Shown: piece by piece, positions 1-5,343 of the stretch
Layout of the letters: each line of letters begins with the position of its first letter
Position numbering within the stretch: position 1 is the stretch's first letter
Origin: an uncultured Shinella sp.
Lineage (GTDB): Bacteria; Pseudomonadota; Alphaproteobacteria; Rhizobiales; Rhizobiaceae
Assembly (NCBI GenBank): GCA_946886325.1
Contig: CAMPIK010000218.1
Coordinates: 1-5,343, forward strand
Length of the DNA stretch: 5,343 nucleotides
Reading direction: 5' to 3'
The notes under the pieces: generated by a model
What the model saw: only the letters and a program-made list of their open reading frames with translations
The model's database searches: none
What the model was told of the DNA's origin: nothing
Made by a program: the position numbers and the translations under genes

Positions 1-38
1 AGGGGCGTCAGGATATTGGGTGTCAGGGCGCGAGACAT
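1..38 (-). CDS. 5' end of an unidentified gene, third in the leftward operon (partial)
   Basis: Only the first 12 codons are present, reading MSRALTPNILTP, and the gene runs off the left edge. The start is supported by a strong purine-rich ribosome binding site, GGAGGAGG on the minus strand at 44-51, a few bases before the ATG. It lies 66 bp downstream of the SDR1 stop on the same strand, and no terminator-like hairpin is evident between them, so it is probably cotranscribed with the regulator and SDR1. The context suggests a catabolic enzyme for the same substrate. Twelve residues are too few to assign a family, and I do not recognise it. That a gene starts here is fairly likely; its function is unknown. 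Confidence 0.6.
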   Translation of the reverse strand, partial: MSRALTPNILTP

Positions 39-104: not shown

Positions 105-914
105 TTACTGGATGCACCAGCCGCCGTCGATGTGGATCATCTGGCCGGTCATGTAGTCGCTGTCGTCGCTCGCGAGGAACGATGCCGTGCCGACGATGTC
201 GTCGGGATAGGAGACCCGCTTGATCTTCAGCTCGTTCCTGGTGATGTCCTCGTAGGCCTGGCCTGCCTTCTCCTTGAAGCCGATTTCGACAAGGTCCTTG
301 TCGAGCTGCTCCCAGAGCGGCGTCACGACGACGCCCGGCGCATAGCCGTTGACGGTGATGTTGTGCTCGGCAAGCGCCACGGCGCCGCAATGGGTGAGCG
401 CCAGGCAGCCGTATTTCGAGGTGCAGTAGACCGTCACGTCGATCAGCGGCTTGCGCGAGGCGATCGAGCCGACATTGATGATCTTGTAGGGATGTCCCTC
501 CATCGGCCCCTGGGCGATCATCTGGCGGGCCGTTTCCTGCATGCCGAGCCACATCGCCTTGGTGTTGACGGACATGATCATGTCCCAGTTGTCTTCGTCG
601 ATGTCCATGAAGAAGCGGGGCTTGTTGAGGCCGGCATTGAAGAGGCCGATATTGATCGAGCCGAATGCCTCGACCGTCGCTGCGACGGCACTGGCGTTGT
701 CCTCGCGCCGCGTCACGTCCATCCGGACGGCGATTGCCTTGCCGTTGCCGTCAGCGTTGATGCGGTCGGCAACCTTCTGCGCTTCGTCGAGGTCCAGGTC
801 CCCCAGGCAGACATTGGCGCCCTGCCGGGCAAAGGTTTCCGCATTGGCGGCGCCCATGCCGCGCGCCGCGCCTGTGATCAGGATGTTTTTGCCCTTGAGG
901 CGGTTCGGGTCCAT
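105..914 (-). CDS. SDR1: classical short-chain dehydrogenase/reductase, probably NAD-dependent sugar or polyol dehydrogenase
   Basis: This is a 269-residue cytoplasmic oxidoreductase of the classical SDR family, whose usual length is about 250-270. The Rossmann cofactor motif TGAARGMG is at residues 14-21. Asp39 at the end of the second strand (sequence LGDLD) favours NAD(H) over NADP(H). NAG is at 93-95; the usual first Asn of NNAG is Phe92. The catalytic tetrad reads Asn117 (IMSVN), Ser150, Tyr163 and Lys167 (YCTSK). The end reads TGQMIHIDGG, typical of the family. The frame stays open far upstream, but the ATG at 914 is chosen because it has GGGAGG five bases before it and places the first beta strand correctly. 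It overlaps the 3' end of the regulator gene by 37 bp. Homology to SDR2 across the divergent promoter suggests related substrates. The family is secure. The substrate is unknown; sugar alcohols or sugars are likely from context. Confidence 0.95.
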   Translation of the reverse strand: MDPNRLKGKNILITGAARGMGAANAETFARQGANVCLGDLDLDEAQKVADRINADGNGKAIAVRMDVTRREDNASAVAATVEAFGSINIGLFNAGLNKPRFFMDIDEDNWDMIMSVNTKAMWLGMQETARQMIAQGPMEGHPYKIINVGSIASRKPLIDVTVYCTSKYGCLALTHCGAVALAEHNITVNGYAPGVVVTPLWEQLDKDLVEIGFKEKAGQAYEDITRNELKIKRVSYPDDIVGTASFLASDDSDYMTGQMIHIDGGWCIQ

Positions 915-2761
915 GGTTTCCTCCCTGCTTGACTGGTTTCGCGTATCGCGCGATCGGCTCTGTCCTGCGCCCGGCGCAACGCGGTTTTTGGCGTAACGCT
1001 GCCGCGCAGCATGTCGTGGAATTCTTCGCCGCAGATGCGGATGATCTCGGAGATCTGCGGGATCGGCGGACGCGGCCAGAACTGAAGTTCGTCGCGCCAG
1101 GACATCGAGTCGATCGCCTCGAAAATGTCGGACGAGCGACGAACTTCCGGGTCGGCGCCGACCGAGTAGCGCGGATTGGTGCGGCTTCCGTTCTGGATGT
1201 AGAGCTTCTGCGCCTCGGGCGAGGTGAAGACGATCAGCGCCTCGGCGGCGGCGCGCAGGCGCTCGGGATGAAGGTTGCGCGGGATCCCCATCGCATAGCC
1301 GCCGACCGGCGCGATCGGCGCGGCACCGGGGCCGACCGGATGCGGCAGGTAGCCCGTCTGGCCGTGCGCAGGAGACGTCGCGTCCAGTTCGAAATAGGGT
1401 GCCAGTAGCGTGTAGCCATAGGCCATCGCGACGTCGCCCGCCGCATAGGGGCGCACCCGCTCGTACCAGGACATGGAGAGGATATAGGGCGGCGAATATT
1501 GCAGCAGGTCCATCAGATATTCGGCCGCCTCGAAGCCCGCTTCGCAATCGATCATCGGACGGATTTCCATCCGGTCGAGCCTGTCGGTGTCGAAACCGCC
1601 GGCAATTGGCGGCAGGTCGATGACGGGCTGACCGAAATCGGCGAGCATCATCAGGAACGTATGGCCGAGCGCCGTGCCGCGCGCCGCATTCCAGGCGATG
1701 CCGTATTTGCCACGGGTCGGATCGTGGAACTCGCGTGCGGCGCGGATGACGTCTGCGGTCGATGCCGGCGGTTCGAGGCCGGCCTCGGAGAACAGGTCCT
1801 TGCGGTAGAGCAGCAGCTCCGGCGTCGTCTGGGCAGGCACGCCATAGGGTTTGCCGCCCCAATGGGTGGCCTTCCAGCCGGCGGTGTGGAAGTCGGCCGG
1901 ATCGAGTCGGGCGACATCAAGCGCCTCGTCGAGCGGCATCAGCACGTCGTTTGCGGCGAGTTCGCCGAGCCAGGGCAGGTCGAAGGCAACGATGTCGTAA
2001 CGGCTTGCCTTCCGCTCGGCGTTCTTCAGGATCTCCTGGTGCAGGCGGTCGATGGAAAAGGCGCGCTGATGGATTTCCGTGCCGACGACCTGTTCGAACT
2101 GCCGCTTGAGATGACCCATCACCATGAAGGTCGGATCGCCATGCACGAGCACACGCACGCCGCCCGGAATGCGCAGCGGCTCCGGCAGGACATTCAGCGG
2201 TGGAATGGGGCGGGCGGCCATGTAGGAGCCGCCGAAATAGTAGTCCTCGACTGCGTCGCTCTTCCGGTTCAGGCCGGGAAAGTGCGACGCGGCGAGACGT
2301 TGCAGCCGGCCGGTCAACTGAACCCAGTTTTCAAGCAGGGCGTCGCTCGGATGCAGCGTGAAGGTCTTGCCGCTGCGGGTGCGGGGCCGCTGCTCGATCA
2401 GGCCGCCGTCGATCATCTCCCGGATGCGGCGCGTCGCGGTCGCATAGGGCACGCCGGACGCACCGATCAGCGAGGTCGGCGTGACGGCCTTTGCTTCCAG
2501 ATGACTTCTGACCAGATGCAGCGACATGCGGAATTGCGGATTGGGCGCGAAGAAATCGACTGTGTCTTCAAGTTCGCCGGCAAAGGCATCGAGGAAGGAG
2601 ATCACATTGATCATCTCGTCCCGGTCGCTCTTTGACGCCGTCACAGGCTCCGCGCTTGCTCCTCCCTTCTTCATTTGAAATGGTGCCCCTCGTTCTGCTT
2701 CGGTGCCGACGCGGCGCGTTGCGGATTTCGGGAAGCCCTCGGTCTTCTTGTTCGCGTTCAT
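878..2761 (-). CDS. Cytoplasmic transcriptional regulator: winged helix-turn-helix fused to a MalE-type solute-binding domain
   Basis: The protein has 627 residues, no signal peptide, no lipobox cysteine and no hydrophobic membrane segment, so it should be cytoplasmic. Residues 1-45 are charged, low in hydrophobics and probably disordered. Residues about 75-140 form a MarR-like winged helix: helix 93-100, recognition helix around TATRRIREMIDGG (108-120), then a wing at RPRTRSGKTFTLHP. Residues about 200-605 read as a full SBP_bac_1/SBP_bac_8 domain: DLPWLGELAANDVLMPLDE (261-279), GVPAQTTPELLLYRKDLF (307-324), EAGLEPP, GDVAMAYG (442-449), GGYAMGIP (487-494), FTSPEAQKL (512-520) and a C-terminal AL..AQDRADRAI helix. 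An automatic annotation could easily call it an extracellular solute-binding protein. ATG 2761 is preceded by GAGAGG at 2767-2772 with a five-base gap. SgrR of E. coli is a known HTH plus solute-binding precedent, with a different binding-domain family. It probably senses a sugar or polyol and controls both divergent units; that role is inferred. Confidence 0.88.
   Translation of the reverse strand: MNANKKTEGFPKSATRRVGTEAERGAPFQMKKGGASAEPVTASKSDRDEMINVISFLDAFAGELEDTVDFFAPNPQFRMSLHLVRSHLEAKAVTPTSLIGASGVPYATATRRIREMIDGGLIEQRPRTRSGKTFTLHPSDALLENWVQLTGRLQRLAASHFPGLNRKSDAVEDYYFGGSYMAARPIPPLNVLPEPLRIPGGVRVLVHGDPTFMVMGHLKRQFEQVVGTEIHQRAFSIDRLHQEILKNAERKASRYDIVAFDLPWLGELAANDVLMPLDEALDVARLDPADFHTAGWKATHWGGKPYGVPAQTTPELLLYRKDLFSEAGLEPPASTADVIRAAREFHDPTRGKYGIAWNAARGTALGHTFLMMLADFGQPVIDLPPIAGGFDTDRLDRMEIRPMIDCEAGFEAAEYLMDLLQYSPPYILSMSWYERVRPYAAGDVAMAYGYTLLAPYFELDATSPAHGQTGYLPHPVGPGAAPIAPVGGYAMGIPRNLHPERLRAAAEALIVFTSPEAQKLYIQNGSRTNPRYSVGADPEVRRSSDIFEAIDSMSWRDELQFWPRPPIPQISEIIRICGEEFHDMLRGSVTPKTALRRAQDRADRAIRETSQAGRKPWTRTASRAKTS
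920..925 (-). promoter_or_regulatory. Ribosome binding site that fixes the SDR1 start
   Basis: GGGAGG on the minus strand sits five bases before the ATG at 912-914. It lies inside the last codons of the regulator gene, so SDR1 translation is probably coupled to translation of the regulator. It excludes the much longer upstream extension that the open frame would allow. Confidence 0.85.
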
Positions 2762-2779: not shown

Positions 2780-2845
2780 TTCAGAATGACATTTCGAGAC
2801 TATGGGGAAAAAGTCCAAAATGGATATTCAAATATTCAGAATGGA
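2780..2845. repeat. Three copies of a near-dyad repeat, consensus TYCA-RAA-TGRM, candidate regulator sites
   Basis: The copies are TTCAGAATGAC at 2780-2790, TCCAAAATGGA at 2814-2824 and TTCAGAATGGA at 2835-2845. The second copy is a perfect inverted repeat with 4-bp arms (TCCA and TGGA) around AAA; the others are partial dyads. Centres are about 34 and 21 bp apart, the latter close to two helical turns, which favours cooperative binding on one DNA face. The last two copies share the longer string AATGGATAT. The first copy lies just upstream of the regulator's ribosome binding site, suiting autoregulation. The last lies against the TATATT -10 candidate of the rightward operon. Assignment to the neighbouring regulator is inference. 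Confidence 0.45.
2824..2835. repeat. Small AT-rich inverted repeat in the promoter region
   Basis: ATATT and AATAT are perfect 5-bp arms around a CA spacer. The repeat sits between the second and third copies of the TYCARAATGRM repeat, so it may be part of a composite operator or simply AT-rich promoter DNA. A 12-bp AT-rich dyad can occur by chance. Confidence 0.3.
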
Positions 2846-2891
2846 TATATTTCGTGCTCTCTTCCGCGGCTCGACGCGGCACTGTGTAGCC

Positions 2892-2987: not shown

Positions 2988-3944
2988 ATGAACATTCGCA
3001 TGTTGCTTGCCGCGACGACCGCCATGGCCGGAATTGCCGTTGCCGGCGCGGCTTTTTCCGCTGACTACAAGATCGGCATCACGCAGAACAATGTCGGCGT
3101 CGACAGCTACCAGACGACCTATGAGAAGGCGTTCGTCGCTGCCGCCGAAGCCAACGACAAGGTGGAAACGGTGGTGCTGGATGCCGGCGGCGACGTCGCG
3201 CGCCAGATCGCCCAGGTGGAAGACCTCATCCAGCAGGAGGTCGATGCCATCATCATCTGGCCGACCAATGGCGAGGCCGTCATTCCGGCCGTGCGCAAGG
3301 CCCACAACGCCGGCATCCCGGTCATCGTCACCAATTCCAACATCGCCGAAGAGGGCTTCGACTTCGTCAAGTCCTTCTCGGGGCCTGACAATATCACGCA
3401 GGGATCGCGCGCTGCCGAGATCATGTGCGACAAGTTCAAGGCGATGGGTATCGAAAACGAGGCGAAGATCGTCCAGATCTCCGGCCAGCCGGGCTATACG
3501 ACGGCGATCGAGCGGGCCAAGGGTTTCGAGGATCGTCTTCCGGCGGTCTGCCCGAACGTCGAACTGGTGGAGACGCAGCCGGGCGACTGGAACCGCGAGA
3601 AGTCGCAGAAGGTCATGGAAGCCTTCCTGGTCAAATATGACGATATCGACGGCGTCTATGCCGGCGACGACAACATGGGCGTCGGCGCCCTCAATGCCGC
3701 CAAGGCGGCTGGCCGCGAGGGTATCATCTTCGTCGGGGCAACCAATTTCTCGGTCGGATATGAGGCGATGGAGCGCGGCGAATACTGGGGCTCGATCTAC
3801 CAGTCGCCGGTCGACGACGCCAAGGCCGCCTTGCAGACGGCGATCGACATTTTGGACGGCAAGGACATTCCGTTCCTGAACTATTTCGACACGCCGAAGA
3901 TCACCCAGGACAACATGAAGGACTTCGACAAGCCCGTCTTCTGA
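2988..3944 (+). CDS. Periplasmic sugar-binding protein of an RbsB-type (CUT2) ABC transporter
   Basis: This is a 318-residue Peripla_BP_4 (RbsB-like) binding protein, close to the usual 300-330. The signal peptide has Arg4, a hydrophobic core to about residue 21 and a likely cut after Ser24 (AFS, then ADYK). No lipobox cysteine is present, so it should be soluble in the periplasm. The mature protein opens with YKIGITQNNVG and continues with family features: ARQIAQVEDLIQQEVDAIII, the PAVRKAHNAGIPVIVTNSNI strand, a conserved PGYTTAIERAKGFED stretch, GVYAGDDNMGVGAL and GSIYQSP near the end. The ATG has GGGAGGAA at 2976-2983, five bases upstream (four if counted from the last A). It heads the rightward operon, followed by SDR2 and the permease. 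The family captures sugars or polyols and delivers them to the permease. The ligand cannot be named from the sequence. Confidence 0.95.
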   Translation: MNIRMLLAATTAMAGIAVAGAAFSADYKIGITQNNVGVDSYQTTYEKAFVAAAEANDKVETVVLDAGGDVARQIAQVEDLIQQEVDAIIIWPTNGEAVIPAVRKAHNAGIPVIVTNSNIAEEGFDFVKSFSGPDNITQGSRAAEIMCDKFKAMGIENEAKIVQISGQPGYTTAIERAKGFEDRLPAVCPNVELVETQPGDWNREKSQKVMEAFLVKYDDIDGVYAGDDNMGVGALNAAKAAGREGIIFVGATNFSVGYEAMERGEYWGSIYQSPVDDAKAALQTAIDILDGKDIPFLNYFDTPKITQDNMKDFDKPVF

Positions 3945-4024: not shown

Positions 4025-4822
4025 ATGGGCCGCGTATCCGGCCGGTCCTGTATCGTGACCGGTGCTGCCAGGGGAATCGGCCGGGCGATCGGCAAGGCCT
4101 TGCTGCAAGAGGGGGCCGACGTCTGCTTCGCCGACATCGACGCCGACGGCGCCAGGAAGGCTGCCGAAGAGGGGGCGCATGAAGCGGCCGGGAACGGCGG
4201 CAGGGTGACCTCGTTCCGCGTCGATGTCACCGACAGGACCGAGGTTCGCGCGATGATCGCGCACACGGTCGGCACCTTCGGCAAGCTCGACGTCAAGTTC
4301 AACAATGCCGGCGTCAACAAGCCGATGAACTTTCTCGACGTCACCGAAGAGAACTGGCATTTCATCATGGGCGTCAACGGGCTCGGCTGCCTGATCGGCA
4401 TGCAGGAGGCGGCGCGCCAGATGATCGCCCAGGGAACGGGCGGCAAGATCATCAACACGGCCTCGGTCGCCAGCCGGCAGGGCTTCGGCAATGTCGCGCC
4501 CTATTGCGCAAGCAAATGGGCGGTGGTCTCGTTGACCCAGTCGGCGGCCCGTGATCTGGCGGAGCATGACATCACCGTGACCGGATTCGCTCCGGGCGTG
4601 GTTGCGACCGAGATGTGGGAAGAGGTCGATCGCGACCTGATGAACATCGGGGCCGCTGAGCGTCCCGGACAGGCGATGGAGGAATTCGCGGCGGGCATTC
4701 TGAAAGGCCGTGTCGCGAGGCCCGCGGATATCACGGGGACGACGACGTTCCTGGCGTCGGCGGAAAGCGACTACATGACCGGCCAGATCGTGATGATCGA
4801 CGGCGGCATGACACTGGTCTGA
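4025..4822 (+). CDS. SDR2: classical short-chain dehydrogenase/reductase, probably NAD-dependent sugar or polyol dehydrogenase
   Basis: This 265-residue classical SDR carries TGAARGIG at residues 12-19, acidic Asp37 after the second strand (CFADID, favouring NAD), NNAG at 93-96, and the tetrad Asn118 (IMGVN), Ser147, Tyr160 and Lys164 (YCASK). The C-terminal TGQIVMIDGG is typical. All catalytic residues are present. The start has GGAGG at 4015-4019, five bases upstream. It is clearly paralogous to SDR1: both share NAG.NKP, an ENW or DNW followed by an IM.VN segment, GMQE.ARQMIAQG, APGVV.T..WE, and D.DL..IG. SDR1 carries a few extra residues before its KIIN strand. Its place between binding-protein and permease genes ties it to metabolism of the imported compound. 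Similar sequences include sorbitol and butanediol dehydrogenases, but the exact substrate is not determinable here. Confidence 0.95.
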   Translation: MGRVSGRSCIVTGAARGIGRAIGKALLQEGADVCFADIDADGARKAAEEGAHEAAGNGGRVTSFRVDVTDRTEVRAMIAHTVGTFGKLDVKFNNAGVNKPMNFLDVTEENWHFIMGVNGLGCLIGMQEAARQMIAQGTGGKIINTASVASRQGFGNVAPYCASKWAVVSLTQSAARDLAEHDITVTGFAPGVVATEMWEEVDRDLMNIGAAERPGQAMEEFAAGILKGRVARPADITGTTTFLASAESDYMTGQIVMIDGGMTLV

Positions 4823-4880: not shown

Positions 4881-5343
4881 ATGGCGGAAATGACGAAATC
4901 GGACATCGGCGGCTTTCTGGCGCGTCAGGGCATCCTCATCGCCTTCATTCTGTTCATGATCGGGTTCACCGTCGCCAATGCGCGGTTTGTCGATCCAAGC
5001 AATATAATGGGCGTCGTGCGCTCCTCCGCCATTCTCGGCGTGATGGCGCTCGGCGTCACCTTTGTCGTCATCAGCGGCAATCTCGATCTCTCGGTCGGCT
5101 CGATGATGTCGTTTTCGACGATCGTGGTGCTTGACCTGCATGACACGATCGGCCCTGCGCTCGCCATTCCCGTCATGTTCGCGATGACGCTGTGTCTCGG
5201 CGCGCTGATCGGCTTTCTGGTCGGCTACCTCAGGCTCAATTCGCTGATCGTCACGCTCGGCATGCTATCGGCCATCCACGGGCTGACACTGACCTATTCC
5301 GGCGGCAAGAACATGGACATCGCCGACAAGGCGGGCACCTGGT
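4881..5343 (+). CDS. N-terminal half of an RbsC-type sugar ABC transporter permease (partial)
   Basis: The first 154 residues of an inner-membrane permease are present, with the frame still open at the right edge; RbsC-like proteins are about 320 residues. A hydrophobic segment at about 15-33 is followed by the family loop around ARFVDPSNIMGVVRSSA. Then come a second segment (about 50-65) and the hallmark GNLDLSVGSMM (66-76). Two further membrane segments follow at about 92-116, then NSLIVTLGM (120-128), another RbsC-family signature. The ATG at 4881 has GGGAGG at 4870-4875, five bases upstream; an alternative ATG at 4890 would lack that spacing. It is 58 bp after SDR2 with no terminator between, so cotranscription is likely. 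It should pair with the RbsB-type protein upstream and with an ATPase expected beyond the window. Confidence 0.93.
   Translation, partial: MAEMTKSDIGGFLARQGILIAFILFMIGFTVANARFVDPSNIMGVVRSSAILGVMALGVTFVVISGNLDLSVGSMMSFSTIVVLDLHDTIGPALAIPVMFAMTLCLGALIGFLVGYLRLNSLIVTLGMLSAIHGLTLTYSGGKNMDIADKAGTW

Follow-up and report, generated by a model that had tools for sequence, protein, structure and literature searches.

The 5,343-nucleotide stretch of DNA analysed here (the window) raises the question of why a complete solute-binding protein should carry a helix-turn-helix (HTH) at its N-terminus, and whether such a protein is exported or controls transcription inside the cell. The genes of the window, with their frequency in a set of 80 related loci, are:

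1..38, minus strand: first 12 residues of an M24-peptidase-like gene (M24 family), which comes after SDR1 in relatives (MSRALTPNILTP against MNRALTPNILTP in locus L001)
105..914, minus strand: SDR dehydrogenase (SDR1), the first 37 bases of which overlap the end of the regulator gene; next gene downstream in 79 of 80 loci
878..2761, minus strand: candidate regulator gene, winged helix and SBP_bac_1 domain, 627 residues (ORF list, Pfam and AF2 model)
2988..3944, plus strand: RbsB-like solute-binding protein (Peripla_BP_4, CUT2), transcribed divergently from the regulator in 79 of 80 loci
4025..4822, plus strand: second SDR dehydrogenase (SDR2); 71 of 80 loci
4881..5342, plus strand: ABC permease of CUT2 type (BPD_transp_2), incomplete at the end of the window; found in 75 of 80 loci

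Domain structure of the candidate regulator

A single long open reading frame occupies 878..2761 on the minus strand, the opposite (plus) translation of this span being interrupted by stops. The initial annotation had described its product as an HTH (about residues 75-140) followed by a full MalE-type domain (about 200-605), and both parts were recovered:

2282..2632, minus strand: MarR-like winged helix flanked by further helices, residues 44-160 with the core at 75-138, from the AF2 model, a model of the domain alone, fold matches and PDB profile matches
2174..2281, minus strand: linker, residues 161-196, with pLDDT below 50 over 165-186 (AF2 model)
929..2173, minus strand: complete SBP_bac_1 (CUT1/MalE-type) solute-binding domain, residues 197-611 (Pfam and predicted fold)

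The profile search proposed for the two domains placed SBP_bac_1 at residues 238-519 (E = 6.9e-25), with SBP_bac_8 also matching (E = 3e-21). Among the sequences of solved structures the top match was 5iai, a sugar ABC solute-binding protein, over residues 206-603. On the HTH side Pfam returned only HTH_24, at residues 94-123 and below threshold (E = 0.27). The window protein had no Pfam MarR or MarR_2 match above the gathering score, and MarR_2 was matched weakly by seven of ten family members tested (best E = 3.3e-4). The annotation had staked its reading on structure prediction finding a winged helix at this place, and AF2 predicts a MarR-like one there. Confidence was good for the predicted winged helix and SBP fold, and both had matches among solved structures. 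When the HTH domain was modelled alone, a fold search returned the MarR topology, with matching helices and wing, and the PDB profile matches of this part were TubR, MarR and AspA. A fold search with the whole model gave SBP matches alone among the matches listed, which is not to be taken as evidence against the winged helix. The protein possesses both the MarR-topology winged helix and the SBP_bac_1 domain of exported CUT1 binding proteins.

Absence of an export signal

The claim that an export signal is missing was borne out by hydropathy and motif searches, the two means by which export was assessed. Neither a signal peptide nor a lipobox, both features of exported CUT1 proteins, was seen in the regulators. 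Among 240 regulator homologues, motif search found no lipobox in the first 60 residues. A twin-arginine-like motif was present in five of the 240, in none of them followed by a hydrophobic core. A 12-residue hydropathy test on the first 45 residues was passed by 8 of 240 regulators, compared with 111 of 120 exported relatives. With a loose hydropathy limit over the first 70 residues, 23 of the 240 regulators passed; 22 of these passes lay inside the winged-helix domain and the 23rd, in P0213, lay at the extreme N-terminus within a long start extension. Judged from its sequence, the window protein looks cytoplasmic rather than exported, despite its database label.

Gene neighbourhood

The permease was absent from L010, L040, L041, L050 and L052, all short contigs. 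Nine loci lacked SDR2, and L004, L005, L033, L044 and L080 among them keep the binding protein and the permease. Further neighbours in part of the set were an M24-peptidase-like protein, E1-type dehydrogenase subunits, a lipoyl protein, an aldehyde dehydrogenase, an FMN-dependent dehydrogenase, ThuA, a 3-hydroxyisobutyrate-dehydrogenase-like protein and a didehydro-deoxyrhamnonate hydrolase-like protein, the last with a match below its cut-off. Around five remote relatives, SDRs, an intradiol dioxygenase, YciI and Gfo/Idh/MocA genes recurred; sugar-type ABC transporter genes were found near L081, L082, L084 and L085, and none in the stretch of L083. The common theme is probably the catabolism of a polyol-, sugar- or cyclitol-like compound. 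The HTH and the SBP as separate genes, an arrangement named beforehand as one that would speak against the sensor, did not occur as a pair in any of the loci read.

No CUT1 (MalF/MalG-type) permease was found beside the regulator in the window, the permease there being BPD_transp_2, of CUT2 type. Since the sensor domain is CUT1-type and the adjoining transporter CUT2, the local binding protein was not the source of the sensor. The remote relative L082 has a second ABC system downstream of its regulator, and a local origin of its SBP domain from the SBP gene two places downstream was considered and rejected (23% identity over 144 residues, E = 0.32).

SDR1 (105-914) and SDR2 (4025-4822) are 46% identical to each other; their nearest models, acetoin reductase and L-iditol 2-dehydrogenase, were both below cut-off. 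For the M24-peptidase-like gene behind SDR1 (10634-11929 in L017, and 1-38 in the window), solved M24 proteins were distant (E = 8.1e-22, 80.8 bits), and the L017 protein matched the ectoine hydrolase DoeA at E = 7.4e-11. The distant solved proteins were 4s01/4rzy, both labelled 'Peptidase M24' in the table and which we take to be DddP. The match being a distant one, DddP identity was rejected and no DMSP role is claimed. The reaction of the M24-peptidase-like protein may reveal the substrate.

Predicted operator

Repeats resembling TCCATTTTGGA were first spotted by eye in the window, and a matrix scan placed two predicted operator copies between the divergent genes:

2809..2829: copy 2 of the predicted operator, reading AAAAGTCCAAAATGGATATTC on the plus strand and scoring 23.3
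2830..2850: copy 1, reading AAATATTCAGAATGGATATAT on the plus strand and scoring 26.1, at a distance of 21 bp from copy 2

The pair lies 48-89 bases upstream of the regulator ATG; on the other side, the ATG of the binding protein is 138-179 bases away, the pair again being upstream. Palindromic half-sites were counted exhaustively in 83 divergent regions (79 loci of the 80-locus set, L081, L084, L086 and the window). ATCC-N5-GGAT and TCCA-N3-TGGA ranked top, occurring in 56 and 54 of the 83 regions and about zero times in three shuffles. The matrix consensus is approximately ATATCCA-N3-TGGATAT with A/T-rich flanks, and two copies lie exactly 21 bp apart in 79 of the 83 regions. All 83 intergenic regions scored at least 10, against a mean of 2.9 in resampled sequence, a count that is not independent because the same loci supplied the matrix. 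A held-out matrix was therefore built from L001-L040, seeded with the core, and scored on the 43 other loci: all 43 reached a score of at least 10 (shuffled mean 1.65), and 41 had the exact 21-bp pair at a score of at least 6, compared with none of the shuffled sequences. Across whole loci, 228 matches scoring at least 12 fell in the 29.8 kb of divergent regions, as against 30 in the remaining ~1.3 Mb.

From a second genome sample, 62 of 65 loci were counted (L087 and L125, whose genomes were in the first set, and L119, which has no HTH, were dropped), and the two samples may overlap further. At a score of 14, a site was found in all 44 close relatives (41 with the pair), in all six Skermanella-like loci, in four of eight R83-type and two of three R85-type loci; the other four R83-type loci, one R85-type locus and the single R84-type locus had none. 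Among the loci without a site, L116 alone had an upstream stretch that was visibly short. Identity to the window protein is 34% for the R83 reference protein and 33% for that of R85. In these two types (L083, L085) an oxidoreductase gene comes first and the regulator second, and the sites found were 1-1.2 kb upstream of the regulator; L083 has a site of score 25.7 before the first gene, and L085 has weak matches only (9.8 and 10.9). In L082, at ~40% identity, a scan at score 9 found no site within 700 bp upstream of the regulator or before two other genes tested. The operator is, in sum, kept in some relatives at 33-40% identity and absent in others.

The bare core RTCCANNNTGGAY is not specific genome-wide, with 2-18 copies in eight genomes that have the regulator and 4-23 in ten without a match, and the specificity of the operator rests on flanks, pairing and place. 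A looser operator pattern was dropped, as it gave 136-451 matches per whole genome in five genomes with the regulator. No sigma-70 promoter by which to place the operator sites was found. An extra operator copy occurs 82-86 bp further towards the regulator (55 spacings), and this nearer copy suggests autoregulation. The palindromes fit the dimer binding typical of the MarR family, binding that is predicted here. The conserved predicted operator, absent from the initial annotation, is extra support for reading the protein as a regulator, and it makes each regulon directly testable.

Exported relatives and the solute-binding domain

Exported homologues, whose existence the initial annotation had held to be a possible refutation, do exist. 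The survey match at L152 is a 449-residue protein with a signal peptide (MHFENKQSWIKKAAAMAVAGAVSSIAVAPASAEG), ahead of two permease-like and one ATPase-like open reading frames judged from sequence to be of CUT1 type, and is 39% identical to the regulator SBP domain over 406 residues. A search with it found 252 proteins at E ≤ 0.001, the best 120 of which are listed. These proteins form a separate clade without the HTH, and so look like kin of the captured domain rather than counter-examples. In a tree of a hand-picked subset of rows, from which three very remote outgroups and reg_L121 were left out, 38 regulators and 15 exported proteins lay on two sides of one branch (support 100/100). The split being on one branch, one fusion, or one loss, of the HTH explains the data; the split itself gives no direction. 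When the three very remote outgroups were included, long branches met and the order of regulators and exported SBPs was not settled.

At 31 SBP positions, among them D256, W357, W432, G487 and G488, conservation reaches at least 90% in regulators and exported relatives alike, which is consistent with a retained binding function. A further 46 positions are at least 93% conserved in the exported clade but below 60% among the regulators. The exported sister clade would allow one binding fold to be compared at work in transport outside the cell and, probably, in gene control inside it.

Proposed function and alternatives

Taken as a whole, the results are best explained if the gene encodes a cytoplasmic, ligand-responsive one-component transcription regulator of its operons, a reading to which we give a probability of about 0.78. 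The domains, the missing export signal, the linkage and the conserved operator were computed; from them we infer DNA binding by the regulator, dimerisation, ligand binding and the ligand class, autoregulation, and repression versus activation. The MarR-like winged helix would bind the ATATCCA-N3-TGGATAT palindromes, two dimers sitting two helical turns (21 bp) apart in the divergent promoter, which separates the CUT2 ABC transporter/SDR operon from that of the regulator (in which an SDR, the M24-like gene and others follow). The MalE-type domain, kin to an exported CUT1 binding protein, would bind the imported nutrient or an early breakdown product, presumably a polyol, sugar or similar compound, and its closing on the ligand would alter DNA binding.

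The SBP fold might serve solely for dimerisation or for protein contacts (for example to an enzyme or a transporter part) within a DNA-binding, autoregulated regulator that has lost ligand binding. The 46 positions less conserved in the regulators would agree with this, but the 31 positions kept in both groups argue against it, and the neighbour genes, which vary yet look catabolic, suit effector control; we consider it unlikely. The database records would make it a solute-binding protein that is exported or docked at the membrane and has an unusual extension at its N-terminus, and relatives with signal-like N-termini exist. For the window protein this is very improbable in view of the unseen signal peptide and lipobox, an N-terminus predicted as a MarR-like fold, the RbsB-like binding protein that the operon already has, and the conserved operator at the locus.

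It is also conceivable that the palindromes serve a different regulator, global or encoded elsewhere, and that the HTH-SBP protein acts at other sites. Such an arrangement would account for the short core being equally common in genomes without the protein and for some remote members having no site. However, the extended site accompanies the family down to ~33-40% identity and recurs in operons whose enzymes differ, and we regard the arrangement as distinctly improbable.

As to the history of the ligand-responsive regulator, we would give even odds to a scenario in which a MarR-like DNA-binding domain captured a CUT1-type binding protein once, long ago, and so gave rise to a large family of regulators in alphaproteobacteria. 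In the operon type of the window, the same nutrient or product would then be read twice by unrelated folds, outside by the RbsB-like (type I) protein feeding the transporter, and inside by the MalE-like (type II) domain setting transcription via paired operators two helical turns apart. The SBP domain of the regulator might serve as a sugar biosensor.

Comparison with known systems

LacI, LysR and SgrR are earlier cases of an HTH joined to a binding-protein fold. In LacI/GalR regulators the fold is of type I, and in LysR regulators it is a small type II domain; no LacI HTH, Peripla_BP or LysR domain was found in the window protein by Pfam at E up to 1. The SgrR/DsvR family likewise combines an N-terminal HTH with a C-terminal solute-binding domain, but SgrR has SgrR_N and SBP_bac_5 where the window protein has a MarR-like HTH and SBP_bac_1. 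Neither SgrR_N (PF12793) nor SBP_bac_5 (PF00496) matched the window protein at E up to 1, while SgrR itself gave 2e-43 and 2.2e-21, and BLASTP showed no similarity between the two proteins (E = 0.58). Membership was rejected on these grounds, and the suggested independence from SgrR stands: the window protein is like SgrR in the outline of its working, yet no SgrR member. E. coli SgrR shows negative autoregulation according to PMC13060122, and the joining of an HTH to a binding-protein fold is an old idea (PMC13060122, PMC5882156).

With the MarR family the regulator shares a winged-helix fold with matching helices and wing and a palindromic target (predicted here), but it has a ~410-residue SBP domain appended and its Pfam MarR_2 matches are weak. 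With CUT1 solute-binding proteins (SBP_bac_1; Arad_9887, which is 5iai, and the L152/P0241 clade) it shares the whole binding fold, whereas the L152 protein lacks an HTH, carries a signal peptide and is encoded beside two permeases and an ATPase. Outside the family, the nearest HTH among the matches listed was that of REC-wHTH response regulators (E down to 1.6e-13), which have a Response_reg domain instead of the SBP in the three matches scanned of 26 HTH-only matches listed. These Response_reg proteins (L163 811-1875, L165 1384-3066 and L167 934-1821) have a C-terminal winged helix that resembles the HTH of the regulator family.

Family size, distribution and naming

Among 7994 candidates, a protein search with the window protein found 1565 proteins at E ≤ 0.001, some of which may be plain binding proteins; the 120 best were 560-627 residues long, all with SBP domains. 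A search from a 34%-identical relative found 617 proteins at E ≤ 0.001 among 7995 candidates, and the two sets may overlap. The genome survey for the HTH and SBP order that the initial annotation had called for found family-profile matches (E ≤ 1e-60) in 6 of 289 sampled genomes of the class; for two families the figures were 29 of 297 and 50 of 295, and nearly all matches in these two were full length. Some genomes had two or three matches, copy numbers being lower bounds as at most four candidates were scored per genome. Four matches in the two-family survey lacked the HTH part: G721 (L154) owing to a contig end, G747 as a short fragment, G603 (L152) as the exported protein, and G575. The last (L153 3100-4416) matches the R83 (Sinorhizobium) type at 78% identity in its SBP part, has upstream frames without a recognisable HTH, and is possibly a decayed or truncated regulator. 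A few further survey proteins had an internal stop within the profile match.

Where database entries give family members a name, it is 'extracellular solute-binding protein', '(sugar) ABC transporter substrate-binding protein' or 'multiple sugar transport system substrate-binding protein'. The mislabelling that had been foreseen was found in six plasmid records, where relatives are called 'extracellular solute-binding protein'. With likely regulators filed as binding proteins, regulon maps of marine Rhodobacterales and rhizobia would miss the family and transporter counts would wrongly include it. The family seems to be widespread in marine and soil bacteria and apparently unstudied. No paper on the MarR-like HTH plus SBP_bac_1 architecture was found in the open-licence literature, outside which most subscription papers lie, in keeping with its having been thought little described; in excerpts of PMC13133039, SBP_bac_8 is mentioned only as a neighbouring gene. 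Within the literature searched, this family of MarR-like HTH and SBP_bac_1 proteins appears to be new, as do its spread, its operator and the exported clade that is its sister.

Two regulator copies occur on one contig in L075 (7989-9818 and 13936-15729), at 61% and 65% identity to the window protein; predicted operators lie close to each, and SDR1 is behind the second copy only. In L091 and L092, from 1.4 Mb genomes, a remote member is 36% identical to the Skermanella protein and 33% to the window protein, and its predicted operators are near-perfect and A/T-flanked, with scores of 26.3 and 25.7.
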